Shown piece by piece: positions 3,401 through 45,300 of a stretch of 64,000 bases of DNA. The stretch is from Amphiura filiformis (Eukaryota > Echinodermata > Ophiuroidea > Amphilepidida > Amphiuridae): the NCBI RefSeq assembly GCF_039555335.1, contig NC_092647.1, positions 19,872,880 through 19,936,879 on the forward strand. The letters run 5' to 3'. A program made the position numbers and the translations under genes. How positions within the stretch are numbered: the stretch's first letter is position 1; the number at the start of each line of letters is the position of its first letter. Below the pieces are notes generated by a model. That model was not told the origin of the DNA and did not search any database. It was given only the letters and a program-made list of their open reading frames with translations.

Positions 3401-4222
3401 TTTTGTTTTATTTTATTTTATTTTATTTTATTTGTTTTGTTTTGTTTTGTTTTGTTTTGTTTTGTTTTGTTTTGTTTTGTTTTACTTTATTTTGTTTTAT
3501 TTTATTTTATGTCATTTTTATTTTTTTGTTTCATTCATTCTGCATATTTTACCTTCAAGACCTCTGGAGGGGTTGTCACAGGCGCCAGTACCAACACACC
3601 CACATGAACTGCAAATAATATAAGTCAATTCAATACAAAAATCATCAAATAATTTTCATTAATTTGATAGGTCGTTGCATTCCATTTGTGAATGTAGACT
3701 CCCAGAAATAAATAAATAAATAAATAAATAAATGAATGAATGAATGAATGAATGAATGAATGAATGAATGAATGAATGAATGAATGAATGAATGAAGGAT
3801 GGAAGGAAGGAAGGAAGGAAGGAAGGTAGGAAGGAAGGAAGGAAGGAAGGAATGTATGTTGGGTTATTTATAAAAAGAACCTAATACATGCAAACATTTT
3901 GTGGCAGCTTTTAGATATGTTATGGAAACATTTTATAACCCTAATATATAACTTGACATTAAAATGTTTTCTGGGATTAAGACTGCAAATCTTTATCACC
4001 AATCAACATTAACACATCACAGCAGATACTGTAGAAACAAAGGAGAACAAAACCACAATGGATGTTTTATTCATAAAATTACAATATTCTAATGTATTTT
4101 TACACACATAAACATACCAGTCAAGAAGAAGATTTTCTGCATAAGTATTCTTCACCATCAACAGTATCATCATCTGCAGTGAATACTTCAGGAACCTAGC
4201 CATGTCTATGATTGAAACTAGC
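261..4222 (-). CDS. Gene 1: 12-Cys/mucin-stalk type I membrane receptor (3' part outside window)
   Basis: Four exons join in frame: 4118-4222 (ATG at 4203-4201), 3553-3608, 1287-1818 and 261-413; the CDS so far is 827 nt, 275 aa. All junctions are GT-AG, with phases 2, 1, 2, 2 shared by the paralogues. Order: hydrophobic signal peptide (about residues 1-22); C29-x-C-x-C split over the first junction; 12-Cys domain with cysteines at 60, 69, 78, 83, 84, 94, 105, 109, 113, 114, 118 and 120 and the W-x-C-C motif; Ser/Thr-rich stalk 121-226 full of TTS/TTT runs; membrane helix about 231-253 with alternating Gly; then YCHKRG and a basic start of tail. The exon at 261 ends on a donor (GTAATT), so the tail continues beyond the left border and its signalling motifs are unknown. 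Signal, ectodomain and introns are closest to gene 4. The architecture is seen directly; a receptor role is inferred. I cannot name the 12-Cys domain. Confidence 0.85.
414..1286. other. Gene 1 intron 3
   Basis: Segments 478-600 and 1018-1175 match gene 4 intron segments 57118-57320 and 57345-57500, showing that introns were duplicated with the exons. A fragment starting CAGTGGCGG near 749, with GGGG tracts, looks like a hAT-type repeat piece absent from gene 4. Confidence 0.5.
1287..1818 (-). CDS. Gene 1 exon 3: 12-Cys domain and mucin-like stalk
   Basis: A 532-nt exon, acceptor TTTTTTACAG, donor GTAAGT, phase 1 in and 2 out. It starts V-E-F-V-E-N-G-F-T-G-P-Q-C, holds all 12 domain cysteines, then about 105 Thr/Ser-rich residues. 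Part of the plus strand over this stalk is open only because ACA/ACT codons read as TGT/AGT on the other strand. Confidence 0.88.
1819..3552. other. Gene 1 intron 2: GT microsatellite and repeat fragments
   Basis: A (GT)n run lies near 2236-2256. From about 2260 to 2640 are repeated phrases GTGATCACAATTAAG and AAGGTCAT. A truncated hAT-like end (GTACGGGCCTG) lies near 3046-3056. Simple repeats fill 3278-3530. No coding signal is seen. Confidence 0.5.
3278..3530. repeat. Pentanucleotide repeat tract (TTTAA to TTTTG)
   Basis: Successive (TTTAA)n, (TTTCA)n, (TTTTA)n and (TTTTG)n blocks. Open frames reading FILFYFI or FVLFCFVLF here are products of the repeat. The tract ends about 20 bp from gene 1 exon 2. 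Confidence 0.9.
3553..3608 (-). CDS. Gene 1 exon 2: CxCxC mini-exon
   Basis: This 56-nt exon (phase 2 in, phase 1 out) completes Cys29 and encodes SCGCVGTGACDNPSRGLE. Its acceptor is TTTGCAG and its donor GTAAAA, matching the gene 4 mini-exon 59407-59462 in length and phase. It is wedged between two long simple-repeat tracts. Confidence 0.8.
3709..3852. repeat. Tetranucleotide repeat tract (AAAT, GAAT, GGAA)
   Basis: Perfect runs of AAAT, then GAAT, then GGAA with one GGTA interruption. It lies in gene 1 intron 1, about 100 bp upstream of exon 2. Confidence 0.9.
4118..4222 (-). CDS. Gene 1 exon 1: signal peptide
   Basis: The acceptor after a T-rich tract ends at 4223. The ATG is at 4203-4201, after 19 nt of 5' leader. 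It encodes 28 residues, MARFLKYSLQMMILLMV then KNTYAENLLLD, and ends TG before GTATGT (phase 2). It is nearly identical to the gene 4 signal exon at 60157-60257. Confidence 0.85.
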
Positions 4223-11000: not shown

Positions 11001-11663
11001 GTCCTCTATGTTCATTGAACATTGTTCAATCTCCCCTTTGTGGAAACTTTAGCCATGCCAATCTTCAAGATCAGTTTTTCCTTTTACATCAAAACTTTTT
11101 CAGCCTTTAAATTATGGGTGTCAATATGCTTTTACCAGTTCAAGATATAGATGGATTGTTGTCCAGGTGCAGTGGTTGTGTTGATGGTACATATTTTTTT
11201 AGGATACCCGAAACTCACCACGCACAATATTTGAAAGATCATACTTATTTATTAGCATTTTTTTAAAAATTGCATTAACATTTTAAAAGTAGATGAGTGC
11301 CATCTCATTCAGCAATGTTCAAGTACTTGGAAAACAATTTGTTCAGCACCATGAGTACATTCAAGAAAGACTGATATCAGGATTTAATTTTGGTAAATCC
11401 CATAATTCATTGCAGTTAGACAGGAGATATCGTCATTTGACGTCATGCCGATGCGAACATCGTTTAGTGAACATTGTTACTGCACATTGCAAGTCGGCGT
11501 GATGTGAAATGACGAGATCTCAGGTCGAAACGCAAGAAATTATGGAATTTATCAAAAAGGTCAATTGTGAGGATCTTGTTCTTTAATTTTTTAGCGTATG
11601 TTACAATAAAAAGCTATTGCCAATTATCTGTTAGAGTACAAATGTTACCTGTTGATGCTGAGG
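8092..11663. other. Intergenic region downstream of gene 2
   Basis: AT-rich; a C-rich (CACCCC)n tract lies near 8846-8893. Repeated CCGAGGAC words occur between 8950 and 9640, suggesting an unrecognised dispersed repeat. A CRE-bearing block lies near 10440. The gene 2 3' UTR should lie just below 11664; a minus-strand AATAAA is near 11246-11255. No gene is recognised. Confidence 0.4.
10380..10560. promoter_or_regulatory. CpG-containing block with a perfect CRE (TGACGTCA)
   Basis: This short stretch is richer in CG than its AT-rich surroundings. It holds a palindromic TGACGTCA near 10440 and GCATGATGGGTAATT near 10491-10505, which resembles a degraded ZNF143-type motif. It could be a promoter or enhancer. 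No gene reading out of it could be recognised. Confidence 0.25.
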
Positions 11664-12364
11664 CTATTGAGCATCCGGTGGTATACTGTACTCCCTCTCC
11701 TCCTGACCTGTCTTGACATTCTCATCATCATCACCAGGTGGTTCCAAGATAAAATACTCCCTATCATCCAAACCATTTGCTGCATCAGCAGCGCCATCAC
11801 TACCCTCATCACCAGAGTTTGGTGGTTCTAACGTAAAATACTCTCTATCATCCAAACCATTTGCTGCATCAGCAGCGCCATCACTATCTCCATCACCAGA
11901 GTTTGGTGGCTCCAGTGTGAAATACTCTCTATCATCTGCATCTTCCGTCTTATTGTTCTCATCATTACCATCTGCCTCTTTGTTCTTATTAGTAAACGCT
12001 GGTACATCAGTGTATTTCTCTGGATCGGCATAGTCTCCGCTACCCATATCTTCAGGTTTTGGGTTTTTCAAGTCTTGGTAGTGTCCTTGTTCAGATTTGT
12101 TCAGAGATTGATAATGACTTTGTTCAGGCTTTTTCAAAGCTTGGTAGGGATCTTGTTCTGGTTTATTGAGGGTTTGATAAGGATCTTGCTCGGGTTTTTT
12201 GAGGGCTTGGTAAGGTTCTTCAGGTTTTTTCAGAGATTGGTAGTGTTGTTGTCCAGGTTTTACCTGTGATGATTTCTGTAAGCCCATGTCAGGTTGATGA
12301 GTTGATGTGTTATCTTCAGGAAGGATAACTTTGTTGATTGCTTCATACCCAGGATTCTCCACAG
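11664..12364 (-). CDS. Gene 2 terminal exon f: NPGY, six YQxL, three EYFxL repeats
   Basis: Acceptor TTCTTTGTCAG, phase 1 in, stop TAG. It encodes residues 510-742: AVENPGYEAI; the YQxL array 551-608; MGSGDYADPEKY; then an acidic region with a 28-residue repeat (DDREYF(T/I)LEPP and a GSDGAADAANGL spacer) and EEREYSIPP near the end. Other frames over this exon are shadows of its repeats. Confidence 0.9.
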
Positions 12365-15300
12365 CTGACAAAGAACAAAAGCATGGGTTAATTGATACAA
12401 TTGAATCATTGAATTGATGCAAGAGCATCCTCTTGGTTGGGCTGACGTCACACAAAACCGACCGGGAAAACCAACAAGACTAACATATTCATACACTGCT
12501 AAAGGTCCCTTGCAAGGCAAGAGCATTCACTTTGCAAGACATAACATATGCGTGCACTGCTTTTCTCCTCTGACATGCTGATTGTTATAATTATATGCAC
12601 TATATGGTATTGAGAACTGCGCACCCTCTAGGGATGAGAATGCTCATCTGAAAACAGGCAGATCATCTCATTAATGAGACCTTTGTACATTGGCGTACGC
12701 AGGGGGGGTGTTACGGGTGTGAAACACCCCCCTTGGATCTGTCCAAAAAAATTAAAATGGGGGAGAAAAGGCAAAGAAAGAGAGAGAGACACAGAGAGAG
12801 GAGAGAGAGGGGGGAGAGAGGGGGGGGGGGAATAGGAAGAGGAGAGGAGGGAGATGAGCAAGGCATATGGGACATATTATTACAATTATCATAGGCCTAT
12901 ATATTCCATAACTACCCCGCCCACACAAATTTATCTCACCCCTAGGCCTATACCCGGTATTGACCGGCACGTACGTAAATGTGTCAATACATGTTAACAC
13001 CCCGGCCCCACATCATTACACCTTTACCCTGGCAACGTACGTACGTAAAGGTGTTAATTGTTAATCCATTATGATGTTAAAACCAACACCTCTCCACATC
13101 ACACCCCACACCCTACCCCCGGACCCTACCCCGGCAACATATACGTAAAGGTTTTAATTGTGCAAATTGAGTTCGGGCCCTTTTTTTCTGTTTGAAGCAA
13201 TGATTTAGGCCTAAATAGTGTAAAAATTTTGCAAATTTTTCGAACTTCTGCAGGAGGCAAAACTCTTGTTCACGAAAGGCTTCATGTACCGTTATTTCAC
13301 CAATTTTCGGCTTTTTCAAACTAAAATTTTACACACTAATCATGCTAATAGTCCCAAAATGATCCACCAAATCGCTTCAATTAGGTCTTCATTTTGCAAA
13401 AGTTTCTTAATTCTGAGAGGGGCCTCAGACACCCCCTGCGTAGTGGATAAACAAGCTGCAGCCATTTTTGATTCTGCTTTCGACATTTACCAATTTGTGT
13501 TTAACACAATTTATAGGCCTACAACTGAAGAGAAAACTTGTTCACGAAAGGCTTCATGGACCGTCATTTCACAAATGTTCGGCTTTTTCAATTTAAAATT
13601 TTACACACTAATAGTGCCAAAATTGTCCACCAAATCGCTTCAATTAGTCTTCCTTTTCCAAAAGTTTCTAATTCTCAGGGGGCACATCCCCCCTCAGACT
13701 CCCCTACGTCGGGCAGGCGCGACGGGATGACCGCTATAAACGTGGCCATTTCTTTATTTTAGTATTTTTATCATCACACCCCCCCTTGAAAAATTCCTGC
13801 GTACGCGCATGCCTTTGTATAGTTTTTGATTCATCAGCTTTGTATAGTTTTTGATTTGTTAACTTAAAAGGGCATTTCGTGATCCACAACATCATCCCCC
13901 CACTTTTCTCAAAAAAAGTTGAGATTTTTTTACCACTGGAAACCTCTGGCTACATAATGTTTATGTACCAACAAAATTTCTTGCAGATTAATTCGTTTAG
14001 CAGATATATCATCAAATTTTAATTTCATTTTGGTATATACCAGAACGAAATTACAACGGTGGCCTATGAAGCAGGGTAATACACATAATCATGCATAACT
14101 CGCAAATGCAAAATCGGAATCAACTGAAATTTTGGGAATAAGCTTTTTTCATGGATATCTACTGAAAAATGTCACAAAAAGAGGATGCCAGGATCACATA
14201 ATCCTCCTTTAATTGTCTCTTTATTGTCAATCTGCTTACCATGGCTTGCTTTTTGGCCTGTTAACGTATTACCACATTTCTCTGGGTCCATGTATACACC
14301 ACTTCCCATACCATCTGATGAACGTGTACATTTATTAACTGCTAGTTCTGTAGATCCAGGGATGGTTATTTGGCCAATTCCATCATAATTTGGGTTTTCA
14401 ACAGCTGTGTATGTATAGAGTGAAAAGAAATACATGTAGTAACAAATAAAATGAATATATAATAACATTTGCCCCCCCCCCAGGCCCCCCTGAAATGATT
14501 TTTAAACATTTAGACGTAAATTTTTGATTGTTTGTTTTATTTCTTCTTCAGTTGATGTTTTAATGTATCCTCTGTTCTTCCATGAGGCCCAGGGGTCACA
14601 TTAAAATATTCATCAAAATAATTTAGCAAAATATTTAAATACATAGGATACATAAATATATAAGCATACACAATCATGAACTTAAAACCCATATTTACAA
14701 TTATGAAATAAATAACAAACACAGCGCATTAAATTTAAATACATATTTGTAAAATATTGGGAAAATAAAATAGCTAATTTATATTTTTATAGTATTTTAT
14801 ACTATATTATATGAACTTATACATATATTTTGAGACAGATGTAGCAAATCTGTACATTTTGATTTTTTAAAACTTTAGTCTTCAATAAGAGAGATGAAAT
14901 TCACCTGTCTGAGGAGTGCCTTGATTGCCTGTATATTTCTCTGGATCCATGTACTCTGCTTCTCCCATATCTGTATTGGATGGTCTTTTTATGGACTGAT
15001 ATGCTGATTGTATTGGTACATTACTTGACAGGATCGTATCCTCATAGCCAGGATATGCTGAAAGGATTATGTAAAACCATTAGCTGGAAAAACCTCAGTT
15101 GTAAATTGATTATTGTAACCTAGGTTTTTTATTCATTTTTTAAAGACTTATATCAAATGTACATTGCATATACGTATAGTTCTTCAGCACAACCCTGTCA
15201 AAAAAAAAAGCGCAGTGATTTTTAGTGCACCAGGCACAGGCACAACGCCTAGATGTTGATCCACAAGCCTCAGCACACTTTACAGGTTGTTGCTGACCAC

Positions 15301-18300
15301 TACAGCATCACATCATTCGGCACCGCCAGGGTTTGAACCTGCAATTTCTCACACCATAGTCGAATGCCTTATCAATTAAGCTAACTTGACTGCCTGCCTG
15401 TACCCTCATTTCCATTAAGGACCCCCCGGGCAATTATCAACAACCTCACCTTCCTTATACCTTCACCCAATTTGGATCAGAGTCTGTATAGGCATTTCTG
15501 CCCCAGCAATATTACCAATGATGAATTTTCAATTCACAGACTGGATTTTTCACATAAATTTATAATAAAACAGGCAAACTCTTACATCTACTCTGTTTGA
15601 CTGGAGCATGTCCATCTTTAGACATCCCAAGTGGTTCTGTGTATCCATCACTTTTTTTCTTCAGTGATTGGTAAGCAGAAGATATGGGCTGGATTGTGTC
15701 CGCATATTCAGCCTCTATATTTGGGGGACCCGTGATGACCAGCCTATTGAGATCATCATAACCAGAATTCCTTGGACCTGTGTTAAAATGGTAATTATTT
15801 ATTGGTAATTAGCTGATTTGAGAATGATTGTTTCAGTATATCAGATGCTGATGGGTACCCTTGATAATGAGTGTGTTGCAGCACTTGGCATATTGGTTGA
15901 GTGGGGCTGGTGTTATTAAGCGGCATCTTTGGTACTGTTCATTTGTAAATGAACTATGAGAGTACTCCCTCTATTAGATGATCGAGACATTAAACGATCA
16001 ATCTTGTTGGAAATAATGAAAGGAGACGCATTCCTTTAGTAGGTACCCTACTTTTTCTTGAAACTGAATGTGATATACATGTATATACAGATGTTATTTT
16101 ATGTACACAGGACTGATAAATAAATGGGATAAATAGTTGCACTAAAATGATTCTGATGCATTTCAGTGGTAGCAAGAGAGTTTTTGATGTGTGCTATATA
16201 TAAGTATTTCTAATATTTCAATTTTAAAATGCATGATTTACAAGTCTAAAGCTTGATTACTGGTAGTTACTTGATACAGTTTTAAGCTTGATCATTTGAA
16301 GCACTTACTTGGTACTTGTGGTTTGTTTTCACATTGCTGGGGATCCATGTAGATTCCAGCACCCATGTGTCCATTGGGTGAGACATCTGCATAAGCTGGT
16401 TCTCCTGATGCAATTGGCAGATCTTTGTCACTGGTGTTGTAACCATGATTCACTAAACCAGATAACAATCAAGAACTTGCAATTAGGTCTATGTTGTACC
16501 ATACATATTTTGAGAAGGCATAGCAATATGATCAAAATATGGATTTGGGCTGTTCTTATATTTAGATATTCAATTCTAAGCGGCAGTGATGTATTTGTGG
16601 TTTTGAAACTCGGATAAGCTGTGTATAAACACAAGAAAATACTAATTCTAGTAATAGCCTCTAAATCTTGATGTTCATCAGTTTTGGTACTAGCTTTTAA
16701 GTGCGGCTTTTAAGGGCCATACAGAAGTGCAGATTAAAATTAGCAAAATGCTAAACGTAATATACTTCTATTTTACGTGTACTACATATGTACCAAGTTT
16801 CAGCTAGATAGTCCTTATAGTTACATGGCAAATTAACTTTGCATAATTTTGAGTATGTAATTTACATCTTTGGCCTCGCTTTCAGTTTTCTGCTTCGCTA
16901 ACTCCAGCCTAATTGGAGCTAGCAGAGCCAAATGCCGCCAACGGCAGTGAAGTGGTCAATTACGAAAAATGTGTAGACATGAAATAATTATAGCAGTTGA
17001 TGTCAAACTTACGATTCGTAACTGTTTTTGCTCCAGTGTATGTGTTGGCATCAATGTCAGCATATGTTTCAGATGGAGCTCTGTAAAAACATGAGAAACA
17101 AAACAGTTTTTAATTATTTCCAAAAAAATATAAAGTTTGATCAATTCAATTATCTGTAATCCAGAGATGTTCATGATTATTATTTGATAACATAAAGAAT
17201 TCATCTAATCAAGACCAGTCAAAACTTGTGTTTTTCTGAACGTTTCATCAACCATCGGTTGACTTCATCAGCAGTGTTGCTGTTTTGAAGTGCTGTGTGA
17301 TATTGAACCGACAATTCTAGAAGTTGGAGCAGCATCAAACCCTGTGAAGTCAACCGGTGGTTGATGAAAGTTTTGACTGGTCTTGATCAGCTGAAATTAT
17401 TTATTATGTTATGGATAATCTATAGACCTGATGAATTTATTGAAGGACTTATGATTTCTGGTTGCAGCTCAAAATCATGTCAGTGAAAGAATGTTGTAAG
17501 TTTGGGCAAAATTCAGTTTAAAATGGATTATGAAAATATAGGTAAACACTGTAAACCATTTTCAAGTCATAGAAGCAATTAATTAACTAAGTAATTAAAA
17601 AGTTTTAAAAAACAAATAAGTAAAGAAACTGAAGCACAAAAATGCTTCTCCTGTCATATGATCCTGCACTAACACAACAAAATGCTATACCTCGGAAGGA
17701 AGAGAAAATAAATTAACAAAAGGAAGGGAAAGAAAGATTAAAAAAACAAACAAGTAATATTAAACTTATGAAGAATCATATTTCACTTGCCTGATTTGTA
17801 ACTTATTTTCTGTATCATGTTAATAGATTTGTCCTACCAGAAAGTTACAAATTTTCTCAATTTTTCTTTTATCTTTGTTAGGCAACTGGTGCTACTGTGA
17901 AGTTTGTTGTGCTTCAAATGTAGCTTGACATAATTAGGCCGAAAGCAAATTGAGTCCAACAGCATTGTGTGGAATACATGGAGTGTTCAGTACACCCATG
18001 TAATTATACCACAGATATTGGAACACAATCAATACACTCCTGTCATTTTACTAATGTTTGCAATGGCATAAGGTAATCATCCGGGGATCAATCGGGTCTA
18101 ATTGGGGGGGGGATGGGGACAAGCCATTTATCAGCAATTTTCCTTTGGGATTTTCTAAATTTTGCAATTGATAGAGGGGGCATGTACCCCTTACAACGCT
18201 ATGTCACTGAATGTATGCTCTGATTGGTGCTCACTAGTAAGAGTGTATGAATGCTGCTTGAACATCTATTTCAATTAAGAATTAAAATTACCTTTTTCTT

Positions 18301-21300
18301 GATTTGTCTTCTTTATCAGCTTTATTCGTTATCTTTTGCAGAATTCCACGCTTATGGCAATAAAATAGTAAAACTGCTGCTGCGGCAAGTATTATACACA
18401 TTGCAATGCCAATGCCAGCTCCCATGCCATTGGATTGCCTGCATGATAAAAAAACAAAAACAAAATTATATTATTGTTTTCATGGTTATATGGTGTAGCT
18501 GCTCCTATTGTGAGATTAGGCCAAACAAATGGTTGTCTTGCCCTCAAGTGGGAAAAATGGAAAGTTGGGTTGGTCGGTCAGATTTCTTTTTTTTTTCTTT
18601 TTTTTTTTTTTTAAACCTTCAGTTTTTAAAAATCCCCTCAAATATTAAATAATGCTTCTTCAATTAGGGGACATTTGTCAATTTTGACGTCTGGATACTT
18701 GTTAGACATGTCAGATAATCAATTTAAGACTAGTCTTTCAATCAAATATTAATTTTAAGTGAAAAAATATTGTAAAAATCTGTAATTAAATTCAAAAAAA
18801 AAAAAAGCTACCCAGATTTTTCAGGATTTAGGGTCGGTCAATTGAGGGCAACACAACAAATTTTTATTTGGCCTTGAACACCTTTGTTTCCGCTAAGAGA
18901 TCTGGTGTGCGATTGGCACAGGACTCGCCAAAATTAGCACATACCGTATTGTCTGTAATAAACGTCTCAGGGGCGTTGCATTTTTCCCAAAGGGGGCATT
19001 TATTGGAAGTGAAGTGTCAGTGAAAAAATAAAATGTGATAAAATAAAAATCGGGTTCAATTTCCCAATGGTGCTCATGTAGAAAGGAGGGATTTACGCCT
19101 ATACTAATACTACTACCAAGGCGTCACCCACGGAATAAAGTGGTAAATGGCATTTTCTGGTGCACCAGAATGTAATACAAATTTGGCGATATTTTTGTCA
19201 AACGAATTAATCTTGCTTATGGAGTCATTTTGCTTACAGATGAAAATTTGTTTAGGGGTATTTGAAAAACAAAAAAATTATGAATGTGTGTGCATACTGA
19301 TATCAGAGTTCTGTCCTTCTTCTCCACCTGGGACCATATAACTCTTAAACATGTGGCAAACAAATTGTTAAGATATATGTATACATACGCTGAAGAATCT
19401 TCAGGTGCTGCATTATTCAAAGTAGTTCCACTGGCCATTTGACTGCCATGGGTTTGAGTTGTGATTCTGGTTGTGATGGAACTAGAAGAGGTGGAACCTG
19501 ACACCTTTTGACTCTCTGAAGGATTAGTCTTGGAAGTAGTTATTTTGTTATCTTCTGTGCTTTTAGATGGTGTAACAGTACCAGTTTGTGACTTTGAAGT
19601 TGTGGTTTCAAGTGATGTTGTAGTATCAGGCAGATTGGTTGTTAGAACAGAGGTACAATTACAGAATACTTTGTAACAACAAACATCATCTGGGCGACAG
19701 GTATAATCCCTGTCGCATTTTCCTCTAGCATGATGAAGTTCAATTTCACATGAAATATTAGCTGCATTTTTTCTGCAGCAGTTCCAATTGTGCCTGCAAT
19801 CAGACAGTTGCATGATGCTGCAGTCATTTGAGATTGGGAATGTACATTCTGGATCTCGATATCGTCTGTTCGGCATCCTATTTAAGGTTGGGACAAACAT
19901 CGCTGTAAAAAGGAGAAGAAAATACTGATATTAACATTGTGACTCCTACACTACTATTTATTTAAATTTCCTACTCAGCAGTATCCCTCCTCCCCCCAAA
20001 AAAACCCCACCCCACCACATAGATCAAATACTCAGGACAGGATGGATTGGGATAGCCAGTAGTAAACACCCTTCTCTTTTTGAAACCGACTGCAATTACA
20101 TGTACAGTTATGGCTTTCTGTACACAGGACTAAAAGCTGATTGTACCCTTCAAAGGATGGAGTACTCTCTTGGTTCACATTGCCAACTCTAAATGCACCA
20201 TGGACAGACAAGAAGTCTGAATTTAATATATAGATGCTACCAGTTAAGATTGGTCTGAACCATGGCATGTTTTTAAAATGCTGAATTCCAATTTTCTTGA
20301 ATTCTATATTCATTAGTCTGTGTACTTTAAGTTTGAACTGAAAAATTTTAGGTTTTTAATTTTTTTACCAATTTTCTATTATTTTAAAATATGGTATTTC
20401 ACACTTTTCCATCTGATATCGTCCACATGGTCAATGGCGGGAAATTTTGCCAATCTCGTTGCTATAACAAGTGTGTATTTTTGCCTCACGCAACAAGCCG
20501 AGGTGCGCTTCACCCTGATAGTGTATCTCGCGCGGAGCCTCACAACAAAACATGATCGAAAACATTGCCGGCCAGGAATTTCATATGGCTTGATGAACAA
20601 TTATTCCTCTTTTTCGTGGAAAATATAGCTTGGATTTTCGTAAAACATGCGCAGAAGTTGTATCTTAATTGCGAATACCAGCTGCGTGAATTGCAGGATT
20701 CAAGATGATCACATTTGAAACATGGGTTGCAGGGATGCAAATTGTGCGGGAGCGGGGAGCACCGCTCCTAGGAAATGAGAGTCAAAATTGAGGAAATAAT
20801 GCCATGGGAAGAAAAAAGAAAGAGAGGAAAAAGGAGGGAGAGAAAAGAAAAGAGAAGAGGAAAAGGGAAAAGAGGAAATAAAAAGAAGAAAAGTGAGGTA
20901 CAAGATAATAGGGGATGGCTGTGAGGAAGTGAAGCTACTGAATGGAAGAGAGGAAATCTTTAAAGACACTGGTTGTGTAAAATTTGGAGGAATTCACATT
21001 ATTGTTCAAGAAATAAGAGCAAAAAAGAGGAAGGTGTTAGTGTTAGAATATGGAAATGGGATATGAGAAAAGTTACAATTCATTACCATAGGATGTATTC
21101 AAAGTAATTTAACAGGAAAAAAAGAAGTCGGATGAAGACGGGTGGAAACAGGGCTCATATCTGAGGAAATTTAGAGAGGCGGCAATCCTACCTGAGGAAA
21201 TTTATAGAGAGGCAGCATGCAGCAATGAGGATTTTCTGGGAACAAAAGTCATGAAGGAATTCAGTGTACTTAGTATCAATACTAATGCCACTGAGAAGAG

Positions 21301-24300: not shown

Positions 24301-25263
24301 ATGGTTTGAAGGAAATATGACATTAAAAGTTATATGTCAGGCCTATAATAGTTTCCACAGCATATCAACGAAAGAAAATTATAGTATCCTTGTTATCAGG
24401 CGTTCTTAGATTTACATTTGCAGACCTCCTGGAGATCAGCACAGCACGAAATGTGAGTGTATTGATAACATGATTAAAACCTTTATGGACGTAAAAGTAA
24501 AGTAAAAAATATAAATATGGACATTTATATTATTTTTATGGATAAAAATGACTCAAAATGTCATTTATGAAATAATTGATATCTTAAACATCAGTTTTGT
24601 TTTTTCAACGGGAAAATTTCGATGCAATTTCAGGGCCTATTTTTGATATGGGTATAATTTATATACATGTAGGCCTATTGAACAATATCAGTCTTTATAC
24701 ATTTTATAATAAATTGCGAATTAATATAAAAAGTAATATAAAATTAATGTGCATGTATAAGGCAAGTAGGATGGCAGTTTTTAGCCAATTAACTAAAAAC
24801 TGCAGTGTATTTCTTAATATTAATAATGAGCTAAGGGTAGCCTAAAGGCAGAAAAGACAAAAAGACAGAACAATTTGGAGTAATGAATTAAAGGGTTGAC
24901 AGGAAGTTATAGGAGTTAATGTTTGGTTTGCTGTTTCTGTGTGCATGTTCTCATCATTGATGGTTTGGTGGACTGTCATGAAACATGATGGATCCTAAAA
25001 AAGAGTGATCCTAAACGTGCTAAAAATGCCTTCCACCCAAACTAATTACAAGACCTCTTCTGCATTGAAGCTGGCTTTCCCTTTTAAAGGGAATTTTTAT
25101 TAATTTCTTCTATCAGACATAGCCATAGTTAGAGCATTGAATTGGTGTTTTATTACAATAATAATGTCAAGTACTTACCAGTAATTACCTAGTGATCCTC
25201 CAGATAGTATTAGTGTTATTATCAACTGCAGTACAGATTTCCATTTCCAGTCCATTTTCATAC
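11664..25263 (-). CDS. Gene 2: 742-aa 12-Cys receptor with ITAM-like array in a 29-tyrosine tail
   Basis: Ten exons join in frame: 25179-25263 (ATG 25261-25259), 22782-22843, 19389-19902, 18292-18438, 17013-17080, 16309-16452, 15586-15777, 14905-15057, 14240-14404 and 11664-12364 (TAG at 11666-11664). The CDS is 2229 nt. Signal peptide about 1-25; C28-x-C-x-C; 12-Cys domain 68-131 with N-glycosylation site N98; Thr/Ser stalk 132-219; membrane helix about 224-246, then YCHKRG. The tail (about 490 aa) is acidic, Pro-rich and carries 29 Tyr: YADI, NPNY and NPGY, repeated YMDP, six YQxL at Y551, 561, 572, 583, 594 and 605, and three EYF(T/I)L at Y657, 685 and 713. ITAM, NPxY and YxxP motifs in other receptors bind Syk-type kinases, PTB domains and Crk-type SH2 domains; signalling here is inferred from motif alone. 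A second in-frame Met lies two codons downstream of the first. An alternative reading is a heavily phosphorylated adhesion or scaffold protein. Confidence 0.88.
12688..13811. mobile_element. 1124-bp hAT-like element in gene 2 intron
   Basis: 8-bp target duplication CCTTTGTA at 12680-12687 and 13812-13819. Termini CATTGGCGTACGCAGG and complement CATGCGCGTACGCAGG are inverted. The interior has a GA-rich tract (12765-12858) and copies of the CACCAAATCGCTTCAATTAG unit shared with 6236-7291. No transposase. Confidence 0.85.
13864..14212. mobile_element. TTAA-flanked MITE (copy 1)
   Basis: TTAA at 13864-13867 and 14209-14212; termini AAGGGCATTTCGTGATCC and (complement) AGGAGGATTATGTGATCC are inverted. 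The second copy, in opposite orientation, is 27024-27373 and also TTAA-flanked. This fits a piggyBac-type duplication. It ends about 28 bp from gene 2 exon e. Confidence 0.7.
14240..14404 (-). CDS. Gene 2 tail exon e (symmetric module with NPNYDGI and YMDPEKC)
   Basis: A 165-nt exon, phase 1 in and out, acceptor TACATACACAG, donor GTAAGC. It starts AVENPNYDGI, the same opening as the terminal exon, and ends with MGSGVYMDPEKC. If the donor is not used, the frame reads into a MITE about 28 bp downstream and stops after about 23 residues. Confidence 0.84.
14905..15057 (-). CDS. Gene 2 tail exon d (symmetric module with YEDT, YQSI and YMDPEKY)
   Basis: A 153-nt exon, phase 1 in and out, acceptor ATCCTTTCAG, donor GTGAAT. 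It contains SYPGYEDT, SAYQSIKRP and MGEAEYMDPEKYTG. The donor is weaker than those of its neighbours, so alternative splicing is possible. Confidence 0.83.
15190..15400 (-). mobile_element. tRNA-derived SINE
   Basis: On the minus strand a tRNA-like head has A-box TAGCTTAATTGATAAGG (15383-15367) and a perfect B-box GGTTCAAACCC (15339-15329) at tRNA-like spacing, followed by an unrelated body. It lies in a gene 2 intron. The arms do not make a clean cloverleaf, so a functional tRNA gene is unlikely. Confidence 0.65.
15586..15777 (-). CDS. Gene 2 tail exon c (symmetric module with YDDL, YADT and YQSL)
   Basis: A 192-nt exon, phase 1 in and out, acceptor TTAACACAG, donor GTAAGA. It contains RNSGYDDL, EAEYADT, SSAYQSL and GYTEP. 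The YQSL word reappears in exon d as YQSI and in the last exon as an array. Confidence 0.84.
16309..16452 (-). CDS. Gene 2 tail exon b (symmetric module with YADV and YMDP)
   Basis: A 144-nt exon, phase 1 in and out, acceptor CTGGTTTAG, donor GTAAGT. It contains NHGYNTS, PAYADVS and MGAGIYMDPQQC. It is the first of four symmetric exons sharing a module plan. Confidence 0.82.
17013..17080 (-). CDS. Gene 2 tail exon a (YADI)
   Basis: A 68-nt exon, acceptor TTTTTACAG, donor GTAAGT, phase 2 in and 1 out, so it switches the tail from phase 2 to phase 1. It encodes RAPSETYADIDANTYTGAK plus three residues and the split codon. Its YADI resembles ETQYADI of gene 3. Confidence 0.78.
17209..17385. mobile_element. 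MITE with TCAAGACCAGTCAAAAC termini
   Basis: Start TCAAGACCAGTCAAAAC and end GTTTTGACTGGTCTTGA are perfect inverted repeats of 17 bp; inner arms CATCAACCATCGGTTGACTT also pair imperfectly. It lies in a gene 2 intron. Confidence 0.75.
18292..18438 (-). CDS. Gene 2 exon 4: transmembrane segment
   Basis: A 147-nt exon (phase 2 to 2), acceptor TATCATGCAG, donor GTAATT. It encodes QSNGMGAGIGIA, an Ala/Leu-rich helix, then YCHKRGILQKIT and a Lys/Asp-rich juxtamembrane stretch. It is homologous to the helix exons of genes 1 and 4. Confidence 0.86.
18519..18873. mobile_element. MITE with GGCCAAA / TTGCCCTCAA termini
   Basis: Left end GGCCAAACAAATGG and TTGCCCTCAA; right end TTGAGGGCAA and TTTGGCC. 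The interior holds GGTCGGTCAGA and poly-T/A tracts. Related fragments with GACCGACC lie near 30530 and 59320. Confidence 0.65.
19389..19902 (-). CDS. Gene 2 exon 3: 12-Cys domain and stalk
   Basis: A 514-nt exon, acceptor CCTTTTTACAG, donor GTATGT, phase 1 in and 2 out. Cysteines are at residues 68, 76, 84, 90, 91, 100, 111, 117, 123, 124, 129 and 131; HNWNCC carries the invariant Trp. The stalk after residue 131 is rich in TTS, SST and TTR runs, as expected for O-glycosylation. Confidence 0.88.
19903..22781. other. Gene 2 intron 2: repeat-rich
   Basis: Contains a GA-rich tract (20790-20905), repeated GAGGAAATTTA words (21180-21420), and a copy of the AAACGTTTT-type MITE with an intact right end (GTTTGCTGGG near 22655) but a truncated left end. 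No exon was found. Confidence 0.45.
22323..22655. mobile_element. Truncated copy of the CCAGCAAAC MITE
   Basis: It shares TATAAAGGGTATAAAAC, GTGTTGACAAAATATTTGGC and TTTTTGTAGTGTGTTTT with the full copy at 59668-60027. The left terminus is lost. Confidence 0.6.
22782..22843 (-). CDS. Gene 2 exon 2: CxCxC mini-exon
   Basis: A 62-nt exon, acceptor TTTTGTTGCAG, donor GTATGA, phase 2 in and 1 out. It completes C28 and encodes YCECRRTSVTDGCAEYTADP. It has the same position and phases as the mini-exons of the other three genes. Confidence 0.82.
25179..25263 (-). CDS. Gene 2 exon 1: signal peptide
   Basis: The acceptor TATTACAG is followed by GT and the ATG. It encodes MKMDWKWKSVLQLIITLIL then SGGSLGNY and ends TG before GTAAGT (phase 2). 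It resembles the gene 3 signal exon and is unlike the signal shared by genes 1 and 4. Confidence 0.85.
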
Positions 25264-27439: not shown

Positions 27440-28345
27440 TGAACACTGCTATCATCAGCAGATAACAATGCTGTCTTCAGTAAACAGCAGTTTTATCTTC
27501 AGTAGATAGTAGTTTTATTTTCAGTAGATATCAGTGCTATCTTCAGTAGATATCATAACTATGCTATCTTCAGTAGATAGCAATCCACATGGTGTAATGT
27601 ACATATATTTCAGTAGATAGCAGCGCTATCTTCAGTAGATAGCAGTGCTATCTTCAGTAGATAACAGTGCTATCTTCAGTAGATAACAGTGCTATCTTCA
27701 GTAGATAAAAGTGCTATCTTCAGTAGATAGCAATGCTATCTTCAGTAGATAGCAGTGCTATCTTCAGTAGATAGCAGTGCTATCTTTAGTGGATAATAGT
27801 GCTATCTTCAGTAGATAACAGTGCTATCTTCAGTAGATAGCAGTGCTATCTTTAGTGGATAATAGCACTGCTATCTTTAGTAAATAGCAGTGATATCTTT
27901 AGATAACAATGCTATCTTCCGTAGACAGCCAGCACTGTTGAAGATAGTGCTGCTATCTTCATTAGATAACAGTGTTATCTTTAGATAACAATGCTATCTT
28001 CAGTAGATAGCAGTGCTATCTTCAGTAGATATCAGTGCTATCTTCAGTAGATAACAGTGCTTTCTTTAGTGGATAGCAGTGCTATCTTCAATAGATAGCA
28101 GTGCTATCTGCAGTGGATAGTGTATTTTCAGTATGCAGTGTTATATTCAGTAGATAGTACTATCTTCAGTAGACAGCAGTGTTATTTTCTGTAGATAGCA
28201 GTGCTGTCTTCAGTGAATAACAATTGTCTTCAGTAGATCTTTTTCCAGTAGATAGCATTGCAATGCTATGCTCAATAGATAGTACTTATATCTTCAGTAT
28301 AGATTGCATAGCAGTGCTATCTTCAGTAGATAGCAAGTCAGTCAC
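27440..28345. repeat. 22-bp minisatellite A (TATCTTCAGTAGATAGCAGTGC)
   Basis: About 40 units of a 22-bp word; many contain GCTATC, a seven-base TTCAGTA spacer, then GATAGC, so each unit is a small hairpin and carries two opposed AGATAG (GATA-type) sites. Edges are more diverged than the core. There are no spacers of unique sequence, so it is not a CRISPR. Confidence 0.9.
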
Positions 28346-33342: not shown

Positions 33343-36300
33343 CTGGAAAAAGAACAAAAACACAACATTAATGGTTAGCCTCAAAAAAAGACATTTTATG
33401 GTCCTAAAATAAAGCATCAACAATTACAATCATTGGTGTTCAATTTTACCATCTTACCAATTTGGACATGGTTTTTAAAAAGTTAGAACTGTCAAGCTTT
33501 CATCAGGAGTAGCTCTGACTTCTTCAGGACATAGATCCCAAGAATGAGACATGTAGACCGCCCCTTGCCTACTGATGGCTCTGAAAAGAGCCGTTCACTG
33601 AAGACTGCCCCTCGACAACAGAGAACAAGCAGATCTCACCTATCTGCTAATTTTTAAAAAGGTTTTGGTGGCTCTGAAAATAGCCGTTCACTGAAGACTG
33701 CCCCTTGTCTACAGAAACAAGCAGACCTTGTCTATTTCATCATTTACAGTAAATATTGGTACAATGCCTCATTTCAAATATATAGTTTTAGTTTTGGTTT
33801 TGGTTTTGGTCACGTGGTTTCCTATTGTCCTGCCTAACCACTTGAATCATAAGATATCAAACTCATTGTTTCTACCTTTTGTTTAAAACCGAACATTTGT
33901 GTCAGTCAGTTTCGGTTTTGGTTTCAGTTTCTTATAAGTGGTGTGGATCGTAAAATTATTTGATTTGAAGTTACCTACTCTTAAGTATACAAAAGAAATG
34001 TTTAAATTTCGCAGTGCAATATTCACGAGCAGAGAAGTCGAACAAAGCAGTCTACATTTGAAAGCATTGATTTAGATTGAAAGCATTGACTTGAGACTAC
34101 AAATTAGCCTAAGCTGATTTCACTGTGAAAATATATAGACCATCGAAATATTTCCACAGACATTACAATAGGCACTTGACAGATTATGACTTCAGTGTTA
34201 TAAACACTATTATACACAACTCTATTTATGTGCATGTCGCATGAAGGAAGATCAATATCATAGAAAGCTGGTTTAAACTAACTTTTATTCAATTTATTTA
34301 TTGGAGAATAGAGAGAGAGAGAGAGATAGAAGAGATTGCCAGGGAAAGAGGGTATGTGTGTGTGAGGGGAGGGGGGTAGGGTAAGGGAGAAAGAGAAACA
34401 GAGGGAGAGAGCATTGGAAGTGGGAAGGAAAGGAGGGGAGAGGAGGGCTCAAGAGTGGAGTGGAATAATAGGGAAGAGTCGATGTCGAGTGTGGGGAGGG
34501 GGAGGAGGAGGTTATATATAGGTGGCGGAGGGAACATAGGTAAGAGGTATGGGTTGTGCTTGCCGGGGAATAATCTAATTCACAATCAAATCATCTACAT
34601 CATCATGCATCGTTTATATTTCAGACAAATAAACAAAACACCCCCACCCCCACCCCTCAATATATGCACATGATGTCTATGCATAACTTATCAAACGAAT
34701 CTCGAACTCGGTGTAATTTTATGGTGTCATGGAAGTGTGCCACATACGGCAGAGAGCATCAAAAGTCGTCAGCGTTGATAGATATCGATAATGAAAATGT
34801 TAGCACAATAGGCTATTATATACGTATGGTTATAGGCCATTATACTTTTGATTATATATACCCTCTTGTGTCCTCCCAGCACAAGTGTTATGATTGCATA
34901 CCAGTTCATCTCCACATTTTAATCCCTTGATTTTTGGTTTCTGAACAATAGAGAAACCAAAACTATATATTTGAAATGAGGGAATGTGCTGGTAAACTGA
35001 AAGGGAAGGAAAGGGTACATAAGTTATAGTGGAAACTGTATGGACAGTGGGCATCCCTACTTATAGGTACTTACCAGTAGGCTGTGCTTGGTTATCCAAT
35101 TTGGGGTCAGTCACTTTTTCATAGCTTTCTGAATCTGAATCTTTTCTGCTTCTACAGAATTAAGACATATATATAAGGCTATAGGTAATAGGTATCGTTA
35201 TATATTACTGTTTAGGTAAATCAAATTTAGCTATGAATAATGCTTACAGCTTCTGGTCATGATGTATTTCAATTGCAGTATCATCATATTGTTCCTCCAC
35301 TGGATTATTTGGATTTTGCGTCACTTCAATTCCTGTATCATCGTATTGTTGTTCCTCTGGGTTATTTGAATATTCCGCTGTATCTGGTAGATAAGTAGAG
35401 TACGAGGATATACCTATATCAGCATATTCCTCCTCCTCTGAGTTATTTGAATCTTCTGCCGTATCTGGAGAGGATACTACTTGTTCTGGTTTCTTTTTTC
35501 TGAAATATAATTGTGTAAAAATATTAGTAAATAAATAAGTAAGTCTACACAAAGGAAAAGATCACTACAGAAAGATAATCAATAAAATATACTAAAGCTA
35601 GCTTCAGACTCCGTGTATTATGCGTACAATATTGTAACATATCTACGTTATTTAATCTATTGCCATTCTATTTCAGTAATGTTTAAGTTCTAACGAATGT
35701 TTGATGACGAAAAATCGATAATATGTTACATGTAATATCTAGTAGAAATATATTATCGATTTTACGTCATCAAACATTCGTTAGAACTTAAACATTACTG
35801 GAAATAGAATGGCAATAGATTAAACAACGTAGATATGTTGCATACAATATTGTACGTACAATAAAAGTCTGAATACTGCTTAAGGGAAGGGAAGTGGTCA
35901 TTAACTTGATATTCTTAGAAAAACTACACTTCTTTTCAGTTTATTAATAGTTTAGCAGCAAATGTTGGTACTACTATAATAAATAAAATAATCTGACAAT
36001 TGGTGCTTAAGGGGTTGTTTGGAATGACAGGTGAGTCAGGGGTCAAAAACAAAATTTTTACCTTTTTGACCTCAGCACATGTGTATGTATGATCTGCCAT
36101 ACAAAAATTAAAAAAACAATACCTCAAAGTATCATTTTTAATGTTTTTGTCATAATCACGCTTTTCTACAAATTTCATCTGTTTGTACCGGGCGTGTCTG
36201 TTGCCAGGTAGGCCTACATGACAGCATAGACACACGCTTACAACCTTGAATAATAATACAGAATGACGTTATATTCTTCTTAACCTATCTTAGAACTGCC

Positions 36301-39300
36301 TATTATTTCAATTGTTATACTGTTCTGGTTGGTTTATTGCATATACTGTATAGAAATTATGCAATATGACGTCGAGCATGACAGAGTCATCTTCATTCAA
36401 ATAAAATTCAGGTACCCGTAAGGTACCACGGAGCAATTCGGACGATAATACAATAAAACAGATGAAAGGTATGAATGGTTGTGGAATCGAATTGCAGACC
36501 TGTCCCTCTGTCACCTTAGAACTGCATCTCGTAGGCAATGGTAGGTAATAAACCAACCGGAACGATATAACAATTGAAATAACAGCATGTCTTGGTCTCA
36601 ATTCAAGATGTGCAATTTGGACACACCTACTGTTGGCTGATTTATACTTCAACAGTTCCTCAAAGTGATATCAGAAAAGCCACTATCTCATTGTTCATTG
36701 GCCCGCAGTATGCGCCGTCCCGGGCACTCAACTTTAGAATTGATGGGTATATGTGCCTACATTTTGTACAAGCGTCGCGAAGTAGGCGCATATCAGTACA
36801 AAACGTTGGGTTTTTTTTTTAATAAAAAAAGGGTCAATTATGTACAATCAAAATGAAAAAGGGGTCATTGGGTATAATATTTTGAAAACTGAAGGTGCCT
36901 GGTCATTGGGTATAGTCGGCTTCAAAAGAGGGGCATATATTGACAGGCACATACCGTCACCTCTAAAGTTGATGCCCCCCGGGTGCTCGCATTATATTTT
37001 GTTCATGGCTCGGCTTTTAAAACTCCCACACATCACAATAAGGCTATTGAAAAGTGTATAGAATAGCTAATGATAGACTGGTCCCTGCGATTAGTCAGCG
37101 GACCCGAAATGACAATATAGTAAACACATCGAGTTTATAACACAAGTGACAGTAGTCGTGAATTATGGAGGGTTTCATTGAACTTCTACCAGCAAAATAT
37201 GGAATAATACTAACACAAGACACCAATCGAGATGATGATACCAGCCATAATGGAAGGCTTGTATTTGACCTTCTTATGAATCCAATTTCGTGGCGAGAAG
37301 TTAAAAAGGTAATGTATATTTGAAGAAATTTGGGTTCAAAAATTCCGTATCAGCTCGTATCATCAATTCCGTAAATATGGCGTATAGAGGCACAACTTGA
37401 CAATAAACTGAACTATTTAAACGTAAAGGACGCACTGGATACACATAAATTTGTGTTTCCTTGCTGGCGGAATAGTTGTAAAACTCTTTTTTGTCAAAAA
37501 AGTTGGACAATTTATGAATTATGATTGGCAAAATAGCGAAAGGAAATAGACTTTTCCAACCATGTAAAACTACACTGGGTTGTTGACATGGTCGACATAC
37601 ATTAAGACATACGCATGTTCCTAAAGTAGGAGGTAAGTACTATAATTAATTGTTTAAAGTGCTCAACATACCAGCAAAAAGTCATAGGGTCATCAGAGTA
37701 CAGGGACTTTGTGAAATACTGGGTACAAAAATAAAGTCGTGAGCCGATATGCAACATCAAATATAAAAGCCGATTTACATAATTTCCCATGACCTTACAG
37801 AAGTGATCGTGCTCAAATATAAAACTATAGAGTTTGGTCCTTGATATGCACCATCAATTGTGTACTTGTGATCAATATTGCTAGGCAAACAATCACAGCA
37901 AACATGCCAAAATCCTCCCATTTCTCCTCCATTTACACACATATAAACCCATCCCTTAAAGGAAATGAACGCTGTGCATTTTGTAAAGATATTCAAATGT
38001 ATTGCTGGGCTTGGTCACCCACCTTTTGGATGGCATCTGAGAGCACATCAGACAAAATACAATTTTATATGAAAATTTTGACCTTTCGTATTCGTGGATT
38101 TAGGGTTTCTCTACCGGAAGTCAATTTGTGCCAAAATTCCTTCCCACAATGCGACATGCGTATTGCATAACAAAGGAGATGGATTAACCTCCGAACTGTA
38201 TCTATTGTTATGCAAAATGCTTATTGCATTGTGGGAAGGAATTTCGGCACAAAATGACTTCCGGTAGAGAAACCCTAAATCCGCGTATTGAAGATATGCA
38301 TTAAGTTTCATAAAAGACCTAGAAATTGTTAAATGTAAATTTGTAATAATTTGCCATAAAATTTGTATTTATCAAAATTATTTGACATCAGAAGGACATT
38401 CCTCATAATCGAAATGCAATTTGGTGTGTCTGGTGTCCTCTCAGGTCCCACAAGAAATACTGTGTAAAGGTGGGTGACTGAGCCTTTAAGTCAAACTTAA
38501 TTAGGAATAAAAAAAAATATGCTTACAGCTCCTGGTAGTTTGGTATATCTTTGTCAGCTCCTAGACTTTGATAACCCATATTGTCATGATGTATTTCAAT
38601 TCCTGTTTCGTCATATTGTTCCTCCATTTGATTATTTAAATTTGGCGTCATTTCAATTCCTGTATCATCATATTGCTGCTCCTCTAAATTATTTGAATCT
38701 TCCGCCATGTCTGGTAAATAAGTGGAATACGGGGATATTCCTATATCAGCATATTGTGTCTCGTTTAGTGGCTGATCTGGAGCTTGTTTGATGTTTTGTC
38801 TATGACAGAACAGTAGCTTCCCAATAAAGACCAGTACTAGTAACAGAAGTGATGTTCCAACACCGATACCTACACCAATTGTTATACCATTGGTGGATCT
38901 AAGATAACAAAAATATATATAAACAAGAAATAATTTGTATAAAGTAATTGTAACTTATATTTCATTAGGATTTGTCACTAAGGTCATCGTAATTAAATCC
39001 TGTGTCTCAAAGCTGCTGCGCGCGTTAATAAAATCGTGGGCGTAGTCCTCTTTGAAAATCAAAGAAATTCATTTTTTCAATGTCTTTTTATTTTTTTAAA
39101 CAAAAAGTCAAAAATAAAACTCAAAATTTGTATTCGATCATAAGTTTCAGATTTTTTTGCAAATATTGGACACGAAAACAATAAAAGAGAAGAATAATAG
39201 TTTGTAGCAGTGAGTGACTCTATTTGTCTACTATTCCAACATTCCAACACATTGGGTAATTTTTGCATAAAATTCTTGTCCGAAACTCTGTACTGACACA

Positions 39301-42300: not shown

Positions 42301-45300
42301 AGTAGTTGTAGTCCTTGCCCCTATAATATACATATCTTGCTTGTCACCAATGTACTGTAATTTGTGAGAAAAATGCAAAAATAGGCACAAAATTGGCCAG
42401 GGGTGTAGTACCCCCTTAAAACATAAATTGGCAAATGTCGAAAGAAGAAGCAAAAATTGGCACTTGCTTGTGCACTACGCGGGTGGTGTCTGAAGGGGGA
42501 TGTTCCCCCTCAGAATTAAGAAATTTTTGCAAAATAAAGACCTAATTGAAGCGATTTGGTGGACCATTTTAGCGCTATAGTATTAGTGTGTAATAGTTTG
42601 AAAAAGCCGAAAATTTGTGAAATGGGCGTTCCTTGAAGCCGTTCGCGCGAATTTCGTGGACAAGTTTTCCCTGTTATTGTAGGCCTATAAATTGGCAAAT
42701 GTCGAAAGAAGAAGCGAAAATTGGCACTTGCTTGTCCACTACGCAGGGGGGTGTCTGAGAAAAGTAAGAAACTTTTGCAAAATGAAGACCTAATTGAAGC
42801 GATTTGGTGGACCATTTTAGCACTATCTGAGAAAATGTTAGTTTGAATAAGCCGAAATGACGGTCCATGATGCCTAGTCGTGGACAAGTACTTGAAATAG
42901 TTTTCCTAGTATTATTGTAGGCCTATAAATTCTGTTAAACATAGGGCCTAAACTGGCAAATGTTGAAAGCAGATGCGAAAATGGGCACTTATTTACCCAC
43001 TATATGCAGGTGGTGTTTGAGGAGGGATGTTCCCCCCTTACAACTTGGGAAATTTTGCAAAATGAAGGTCCAATTAATTGAAGCCATTTTGGTGCATCAT
43101 TTTTACACTGTTTAAGTTGAGACTCGCAATTAAAGCATGCATGGATCGATGTTGAAGTCAGCATAGAGTCCATCTTATCATATTGACTTTCTTGACAAAA
43201 TGTGACGGGCGCGGGCCCTGCATATCGGCGGGCCGGCAGTAATTTTCACGTGCTTTTATCACGAGGACTCGCATCCCAGTCCTGGCACTATCCGCGCCGG
43301 TTGCAGATAAAGAAGCGCGATTCGCGAAATACAATTAAAAAAAAGGGGTCATTTTTCATACACATGTTCGCGAAATTAAAAAAAGGGTGCTCTTTATTCA
43401 CAATCACATGTATAAATCATCGTATAGTTTCATTATTCAATTCATTTACGAATTTCAGTTTCATTCTTCCGTTTGGTGCACATCACATTAGGTCACATAA
43501 ATTATACGATGCATATATACAACCGCGGGTGCCGTACATTAATTACCGCGTTTCCATCAAAAAGGGGTATATTAGAAATATTATTCGCGTTTTAGCATGT
43601 TTAGCAAAAAGAGTGGCAAAGGACAAAACATTCTCCTTTTCCCCCTTTCTTTTTCCATGGGCGCCCCAGGCGCCCCGCTTGCGACGCGCCTGGGCAGCGG
43701 GATCACTGGACAAGTGGCCAGCATCTGCTATTATTGTTTTATATCAATTTAAGTAGAAAATGTGGCAGCACACTTTAGATGAATACTCATACTGCTGCAT
43801 ACTATTGGTATTGCTTACAATTTACACGGTTACAGACCATGGTCTGTGTGGCACCCATTTCCGAACAATCAATTTGAAAATTTAAAAAATCCCATAGGAA
43901 AATTACCGAAAAATGGCTTGTGCCCCCTTCCAGTCCTGGTGCCCCCCCCCATAGGATGACTTACTGCTACACCACTGTAACAACCATGACAACTTGTTTA
44001 TCTTAATAAAAGAGATGGAATATATATATACCTTACTGGGGAACCAGGTGCTGCAATGCTAGCAGGATTTTCTGTTGTAGAATGAATTACAGATTTAGTA
44101 GGAGTAGTGCCTGCTTCCATACCAGGCTTTAGCATACTGTTTGTCACTGGTAGTGTTCTTTCTTTGTCACTTGCAGATCCTTTGGATGTTGTTATTATAT
44201 CAGTGTTCTGTCTTGAAGAAGTGGAAGGAGTCACAGTGGTAGTAGTAGGTGGTGGAGTGGGTGGTGGAATGATTTTGCACTCACAGACTACTTTATAACA
44301 GCACACTCTGTTTTGTCCTCCTCTGCCTGTGCATCCGGCATAGTCGGTGCATGTTCCCCTTATTTTATTAGGATTATCACTTAATGTGATGTTGCAAGTT
44401 ACGTTATTTGCACTACTACTGCAGCACTCCCAACCATCACCACATTCTGAAGAGGTACAGGAACTAAGCATGCTAGATACACATGCAGGTTCTTGAAAAA
44501 TACCAGTGTTTGGGGTAAATGCCACTAAAAATAAAAGAATAGTGAATGTTGTCACTCATTTTGCACCAACGATTTCAAATAGTTTTAATTTTGAAGTTTC
44601 TCTGTTTCATTAATGGATACATATCTAAATATTACAGGAATCAGTTTATACTCATATGTTTGTTTGTTAGCTAGTTTGTTTGTTTGCTAATTGACTAGCT
44701 TCTACATACAAAATAAAAAATAAACATACCTGGGCTTGCTAAACTGGCATCACATCTACTGTCCATTTGTTTCTCACATTGACTGCAACAAAATGAACAC
44801 AAAGCTATATTTCTCATTTGAAAATAACCTAACTTAAACATGTTTGTTCCATTGATGTGTGTGTTATGTGTTTACAGACAGCCTCGGAAAGCCGATTTTG
44901 AGTTTCCTGCTGGCTGCGCCGCACTTCATTTTTGGGCCGGCACTTGAATTCATTATTGTGATTTTTCAAAAATAAAAATAAAAACTGGTAATTTTGGCCA
45001 AAAATATGATGAATGTCCATGCACTTTTAGTGAAAAAATCAAAATCAAAACATCCATTTCACTACCGGCAATTCAGTCAACTCGTTGCGATAGATTGGCA
45101 CCTGATTTAAATTTTTAAAAAACTTTTTTTAAAAACTTTTCACAACCGACCATCCCAATTTCTGAAAGTGATTAGAGGACCAGCAAACAATTTATTTTTA
45201 TTGGCCTTATGATGATAAAAGATGCCAATTACTTACCAGTGGTCACCTTGTGATTCTCCCGATAATGTCAGTGTTATTATCAACTGCAGGATGAATTTCC

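Follow-up and report, generated by a model that had tools for sequence, protein, structure and literature searches.

Overlapping ITAM-consensus motifs in the predicted cytoplasmic tail of a 12-cysteine receptor candidate from the ophiuroid Amphiura filiformis

Tyrosine signals of the YxxL type are used in pairs by immune receptors. The TCR zeta chain carries three separate ITAMs, whose tyrosines are not shared, and has no ligand-binding ectodomain, and the allorecognition ectodomains of Hydractinia are Ig-like. As summarised in the respective reports, the TCR zeta homodimer offers six ITAMs with 12 sites, and this multiplicity alters potency, not switch-like behaviour (PMC4850346). Among invertebrates, the FcoR proteins of Botryllus combine ITIM and hemITAM motifs (core YxxI/L/V) with Ig and sushi ectodomains, while the allorecognition candidates of Hydractinia are described with ITAM and ITIM motifs (PMC12065747). 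Overlap between ITAMs has been reported for the gp30 tail of bovine leukaemia virus (BLV), in which three YXXL motifs make up two overlapping ITAMs that the authors treat as YXXPhi signals too, and which, made into a CD8 chimera, signals upon cross-linking (PMC6950344).

The stretch of 64,000 nt from Amphiura filiformis analysed here (the window) contains a minus-strand gene whose last exon encodes six consecutive YQxL motifs. Like BLV gp30 as described in that report, the array consists of overlapping ITAM-consensus pairs built from motifs that fit YXXPhi equally well; it differs from the 58-residue viral tail with its three motifs in having six and in belonging to a predicted animal receptor tail, and we draw the likeness without a claim of homology. 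ITAM overlap is therefore not new in itself (PMC6950344). As in TCR zeta, a disordered tail holds several YxxL/I pairs; here, in contrast, the pairs share tyrosines and the receptor has a predicted ectodomain. The clustering of several invertebrate receptor genes whose tails bear YxxL-type signalling motifs resembles what is described for Botryllus FcoR and the Hydractinia candidates (PMC12065747), yet the ectodomain is here a 12-Cys domain that has no significant counterpart in Pfam or PDB. No non-viral shared-tyrosine ITAM array was among the matches listed in a search of literature titles and the first parts of abstracts, with few subscription papers, which weakly supports the novelty of the arrangement. 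A search for relatives in viral contigs (IMG/VR) gave 2 and 12 pattern stretches, the 12 from a single pattern, and none was confirmed.

The gene was modelled from DNA alone and the exon borders were picked by reading the sequence. Eight exons could be joined, with an AG acceptor in each, a GT donor in the first seven and a single unbroken frame running to the stop codon, and a putative signal-peptide exon lies upstream of them. The features, all on the minus strand, are as follows.

25189..25255, minus: putative signal-peptide exon, MDWKWKSVLQLIITLILSGGSL (from a search combining an ATG, a hydrophobic run and a phase-1 donor of score 7/9)
19389..19902, minus: ectodomain exon, 12-Cys domain and 88-residue stalk with 48% Ser/Thr (AG, GT, open frame)
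18292..18438, minus: transmembrane exon; apart from the signal peptide it encodes the sole hydrophobic segment (maximum 2.67, Kyte-Doolittle, 19-residue window)
17013..17080, minus: tail exon with YADI and YTGA (AG/GT, frame kept)
16309..16452, minus: tail exon unit with YADV and YMDP (AG/GT, frame kept; 14-residue match to 14240-14404, E 2e-4 within the window)
15586..15777, minus: tail exon unit with one YQSL (AG/GT, frame kept; motif listing)
14905..15057, minus: tail exon unit with one YQSI and YMDPEKY (AG/GT; tblastn match to the array exon, E 6e-8 within the window)
14240..14404, minus: tail exon unit with NPNY and YMDP (AG/GT; weakly similar to two portions of the last exon, NPGY and DPEK, E 0.02-0.03)
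11661..12364, minus: last exon with NPGY, YQxL array, YADPEKY, three YF(T/I)L and stop (AG acceptor, open frame)
12069..12242, minus: six-motif YQxL array with five overlapping ITAM-consensus pairs (motif scan, TRF, codon comparison)

As a control on the hand-picked borders, a mechanical scan of positions 16500-18290 for a small phase 2-to-1 exon, with cut-offs of our own choosing, returned 17013-17080 as its sole candidate. The signal exon is in the right phase, resembles the first exon of a paralogue (45247-45313, see below) and probably joins the next exon across 5.3 kb; an in-frame ATG at 25261 is a possible alternative start. The model comprises 716 residues, namely a putative signal peptide, the 12-Cys ectodomain, a Ser/Thr-rich stalk, one transmembrane span and, after a basic CHKRG stretch, a predicted cytoplasmic tail of 496 residues, with the topology predicted from hydropathy only. 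An earlier note on this DNA had started the array exon at 12364, joined it to the membrane exon 18292-18438 and placed the array in the predicted cytoplasmic part of a protein that crosses the membrane once; the AG/GT sites and the single frame support the start and the join, and the DNA-only model, with its one transmembrane segment, agrees with the placement. A soluble or nuclear product is not favoured, as the putative signal-peptide and transmembrane exons join in frame. We also considered whether the array is an antisense artefact, as a plus-strand frame (11832-12269) covers the same bases, and rejected this because the minus-strand frame joins seven further exons and shows third-position divergence. 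Further tail exons were sought in five stretches, where just two candidates came up, both near 31.6 kb, overlapping and unconvincing. Neither Rfam at gathering thresholds nor a tRNA scan gave a match, and a PDB search with the last exon found no match at E up to 5.

The ectodomain is present four times in the window; the exons of paralogue C are listed with the four copies.

1283-1885: 12-Cys ectodomain copy, paralogue A
19389-19902: 12-Cys ectodomain copy, main gene
43998-44555: 12-Cys ectodomain copy, paralogue C
58547-58954: 12-Cys ectodomain copy, paralogue D
45247-45313, 44032-44524 and 38523-38898, minus: exons of paralogue C, 311 residues in one frame

The alignment of the four paralogues contains 16 invariant columns, 12 of them Cys, and tblastn with the ectodomain marks the stretches 1592-1759, 19646-19846, 44277-44480 and 58607-58774. 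No Pfam family was matched by any of the four domains (4/4), and the comparison with PDB profiles gave no significant match (best E = 3). Pfam searches with six longer frames likewise returned sub-threshold hits only, for paralogue A Claudin_2 (E 0.15) and TPR_TRIP12_N (E 0.22), and for the tail of paralogue C DUF5665 (0.098) and TM_ErbB1 (0.17). The AlphaFold2 model is poor, with a mean pLDDT of 47.5. Stretches similar to the transmembrane exon are located at 261-398 and 55658-55810. Taken as a model, the gene product appears to be a type I receptor that spans the membrane once and belongs to a small local family.

Paralogue C was modelled with a putative signal peptide, the 12-Cys domain, a stalk, a transmembrane span and a tail of 94 residues; its splice sites were chosen among several candidates because they keep the phases of the main gene, and its signal peptide stands out with an 11-residue window only, not by the 19-residue hydropathy cut-off. 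The tail ends in YQSL-GADKDIPN-YQEL, which is one ITAM-consensus pair (x8). A match to the ITAM consensus occurred in 2.1% of 50,000 shuffled tails, a figure that holds for this single tail while several tails were examined. A further tail exon at 54108-54332 (minus strand) reads YQSL-x8-FQEL, with Phe replacing the second Tyr, and by its position probably belongs to paralogue D together with the transmembrane exon 55658-55810. Between transmembrane and tail exon of paralogue D the scan gave one doubtful 35-bp candidate, and a signal exon was not found; for paralogue A there is one doubtful signal candidate (4083-4203), and the tail lies beyond the window. Judged by these sequences, motifs at ITAM distance seem to recur in the family; the tails of C and D are related, hence they would not count as two independent cases. 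A third tail copy of the C/D type is located at 35256-35499 (minus strand), flanked by paralogue C and the main gene's signal exon, and diverges before the ITAM part; it may be an orphan exon, an alternative tail or a pseudogene.

Repeats occur in other parts of the window, too. Two minisatellite arrays with similar-looking 22-bp units are located at 27447-28214 and 47774-49465 (35.6 and 77.7 copies), and 61428-63885 holds long arrays whose repeats measure 107-232 bp and abound in AGGTCA-like half-sites. An open frame at 56244-56645 on the plus strand resembles a GIY-YIG/retroelement fragment.

The array itself (HYQSLKKPEEPYQALKKPEQDPYQTLNKPEQDPYQALKKPEQSHYQSLNKSEQGHYQDL, within the open frame 11664-12479 of the minus strand) reads YQSL, YQAL, YQTL, YQAL, YQSL and YQDL in order, with tyrosine codons starting at 12242, 12212, 12179, 12146, 12113 and 12080. 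Six YQ(S/A/T/D)L motifs with Leu-to-Tyr gaps of 6, 7, 7, 7 and 7 residues, as previously noted, are borne out by the motif coordinates; the residue numbers given then (Y551-Y605) have to be replaced by Y525, 535, 546, 557, 568 and 579 of the present gene model. The first unit is shorter by one codon, with a gap still within the range of 6-8. The expression YxxL/I-x(6-8)-YxxL/I matched five times in the 693 residues scanned, always inside the array and overlapping, so every neighbouring pair has ITAM spacing as had been claimed. Underlying the array is a 33-bp tandem repeat (TRF, 6.1 copies, 71% matches), and because this one repeat makes all five matches they are not independent. The 496-residue tail was shuffled 20,000 times, which gave 0.036 matches on average, with at least one match in 3.5% of the shuffles and five in none; these figures overstate the surprise, as an 11-residue period containing YxxL yields ITAM spacing automatically. 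A chance origin of the matches was rejected on the shuffling, with the caution that one repeat accounts for all five. We therefore count the array as about one coincidence, and the case rests on other evidence. As to the view of the earlier note that an array with shared tyrosines is unusual, the arrangement is present, but its five matches amount to one repeat and the overlap has a precedent in BLV gp30 as reported (PMC6950344).

In ITAM receptors an acidic residue shortly before the first tyrosine is common, not obligatory. Asp or Glu is found at most 4 residues upstream of five of the six array tyrosines and is absent before the first (GQQH-Y). An array of ITIMs was rejected: the ITIM residue at -2 is absent for five of the six tyrosines, and [S/I/V/L]xYxx[I/L/V] is matched by one of them only (SHYQSL). 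Outside the array the ITIM consensus is matched by three tail tyrosines. On consensus and predicted topology the product would be placed among the ITAM-bearing receptors.

The reading that we favour, with about even confidence, is that the array would serve as a multivalent, expanded ITAM-like segment on which a tandem-SH2 kinase docks. If the gene is expressed and the protein oriented in the membrane as predicted, a ligand would cluster the receptor, a Src-family-like kinase would phosphorylate the tyrosines of the YQxL motifs, and pairs of adjacent phosphotyrosines would bind a Syk-type or Shark-type kinase through its tandem SH2 domains. Each chain would offer five registers, and a kinase letting go could rebind one register over, with the likely effect of higher avidity and signal amplification, more than of new specificity. 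By arithmetic, at most three tandem-SH2 modules could be bound at once by six tyrosines. In favour of this reading are the five ITAM-consensus pairs in one tail, the unbroken frame with a single membrane span, the constraint on the Y, Q and L codons, the pair at the end of the paralogue C tail and the missing ITIM residue before five of the six tyrosines; against it stand the fit to YxxPhi, the YxxP and NPxY motifs of the tail, the 11-residue period that brings the spacing with it, the unpartnered motifs of two sister exons and the Phe in the tail exon assigned to paralogue D. Syk-family kinases are described from some invertebrates, with a range from sponges to primates (PMC9601881, PMC9486129), and according to the summary of a further study the invertebrates with vertebrate-like Syk/Zap70 homologues are all ones that possess CARD-CC/Bcl10 too (PMC5978004).

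The tail outside the array offers many further sites. It contains 29 tyrosines in its 496 residues, and YxxL/I motifs outside the array number 9 against 1.9 expected (0 of 20,000 shuffles reached 9). Six YxxP and two NPxY motifs are also present, so the tail is not dedicated to ITAM function. Inspected by eye, the tail exons resemble copies of a single repeating unit, with GY/NPxY near the start, in part followed by YQS(L/I), and then MGxxxYxDP; tblastn within the window supports this kinship best for the pair formed by exon 14905-15057 and the array exon (E 6e-8), with weaker values of 2e-4 to 0.03 for others. Two sister exons carry the single motifs YQSLKKK and YQSIKRP, which have no partner at ITAM distance. 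As the motif exists as a single copy in nearby sister exons, the array looks like a local multiplication, and it probably arose by repetition of the YQS(L/I)-K motif inside the last exon. A second coding repeat in this exon, at 11737-11936 (minus strand), has a unit of 84 bp in 2.4 copies with 89% matches and results in three YF(T/I)LEPP motifs 28 residues apart.

Crk/Nck-type proteins bind at YxxP, PTB domains at NPxY and others at YxxL. The tail could accordingly be a general phosphotyrosine scaffold that docks many single SH2 or PTB proteins, in which case the array would merely multiply one single-SH2 site and the spacing of the pairs would be irrelevant. The abundance of tyrosines, the YxxP and NPxY motifs and the sister exons with an unpartnered YQSL or YQSI all fit this explanation, which we nevertheless consider rather unlikely in view of the five array gaps, all of which stay within 6-8 even with the first unit one codon shorter, and of the pair at ITAM distance in paralogue C.

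Less probable still is an endocytic or sorting function, in which unphosphorylated YxxPhi signals would be read by the mu subunit of AP-2 and lead to efficient uptake, for example of a scavenger or recycling receptor. All six array motifs, in the predicted cytoplasmic tail, match the YxxPhi consensus, and NPxY, present twice in the tail, is an uptake signal as well. One YxxPhi is normally enough for uptake, however, so six of them at constant spacing need another reason, and the ITAM-distance pair of paralogue C would be left unexplained. The viral precedent also speaks for sorting: by the published summary, the three YXXL motifs of BLV gp30 fit ITAM and YXXPhi alike and control expression at the cell membrane (PMC6950344).

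The codons of the repeat bear on both its age and its constraint. When the opening eight codons of each of the six units were compared in pairs, 29/120 cells differed at codon position 1, 5/120 at position 2 and 59/120 at position 3, and Y, Q and L are invariant across all six units although the Tyr and Leu codons vary. The ratio pN/pS was 0.07 for Y, Q and L (a value produced by pathway counting between Leu codons, with zero amino-acid changes present). For the KKPE part the ratio was 0.22; the variable x gave 0.75 and the spacer 0.73, although within the spacer unit 6 cannot be properly aligned and unit 1 contains a gap. Neutral evolution was simulated on a star tree started from unit 1, with non-independent pairwise cells and without gene conversion among units. 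At a third-position divergence of 0.48 (observed 0.49), Y, Q and L were kept in all six units in none of 4000 runs; at divergences of 0.40, 0.30 and 0.17, all below the observed one, they were kept in 0, 0.075% and 3.6% of runs. The array thus looks old and constrained, rather than a fresh product of slippage. That it is a neutral coding minisatellite, in which slippage multiplied a 33-bp unit with unselected motifs, is very improbable: the tandem repeat and the second, less diverged 84-bp repeat in the same exon (89% vs 71% matches) speak for it, but third positions have diverged with Y, Q and L unchanged and the simulation at matching divergence, approximate as its star tree and non-independent pairs make it, never gave this result.

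Returning to the ITAM-like docking segment, we tentatively propose, at lower confidence than the docking function itself, that a 12-Cys receptor family outside Pfam has evolved a hexavalent ITAM with shared tyrosines and five overlapping registers, in which the copy number of a coding repeat sets the signal gain. Such an array could dock several signalling enzymes at once, and ITAM multiplicity is a topic in CAR T-cell design, as judged from the matches listed in our literature search. If a natural, selected ITAM chain with shared tyrosines is indeed present, it would suggest that gain is tunable through repeat number, and the use of overlapping registers by tandem-SH2 kinases could be tested directly on it. 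The list of invertebrate ITAM receptors would then also gain a family whose ectodomain is unfamiliar.
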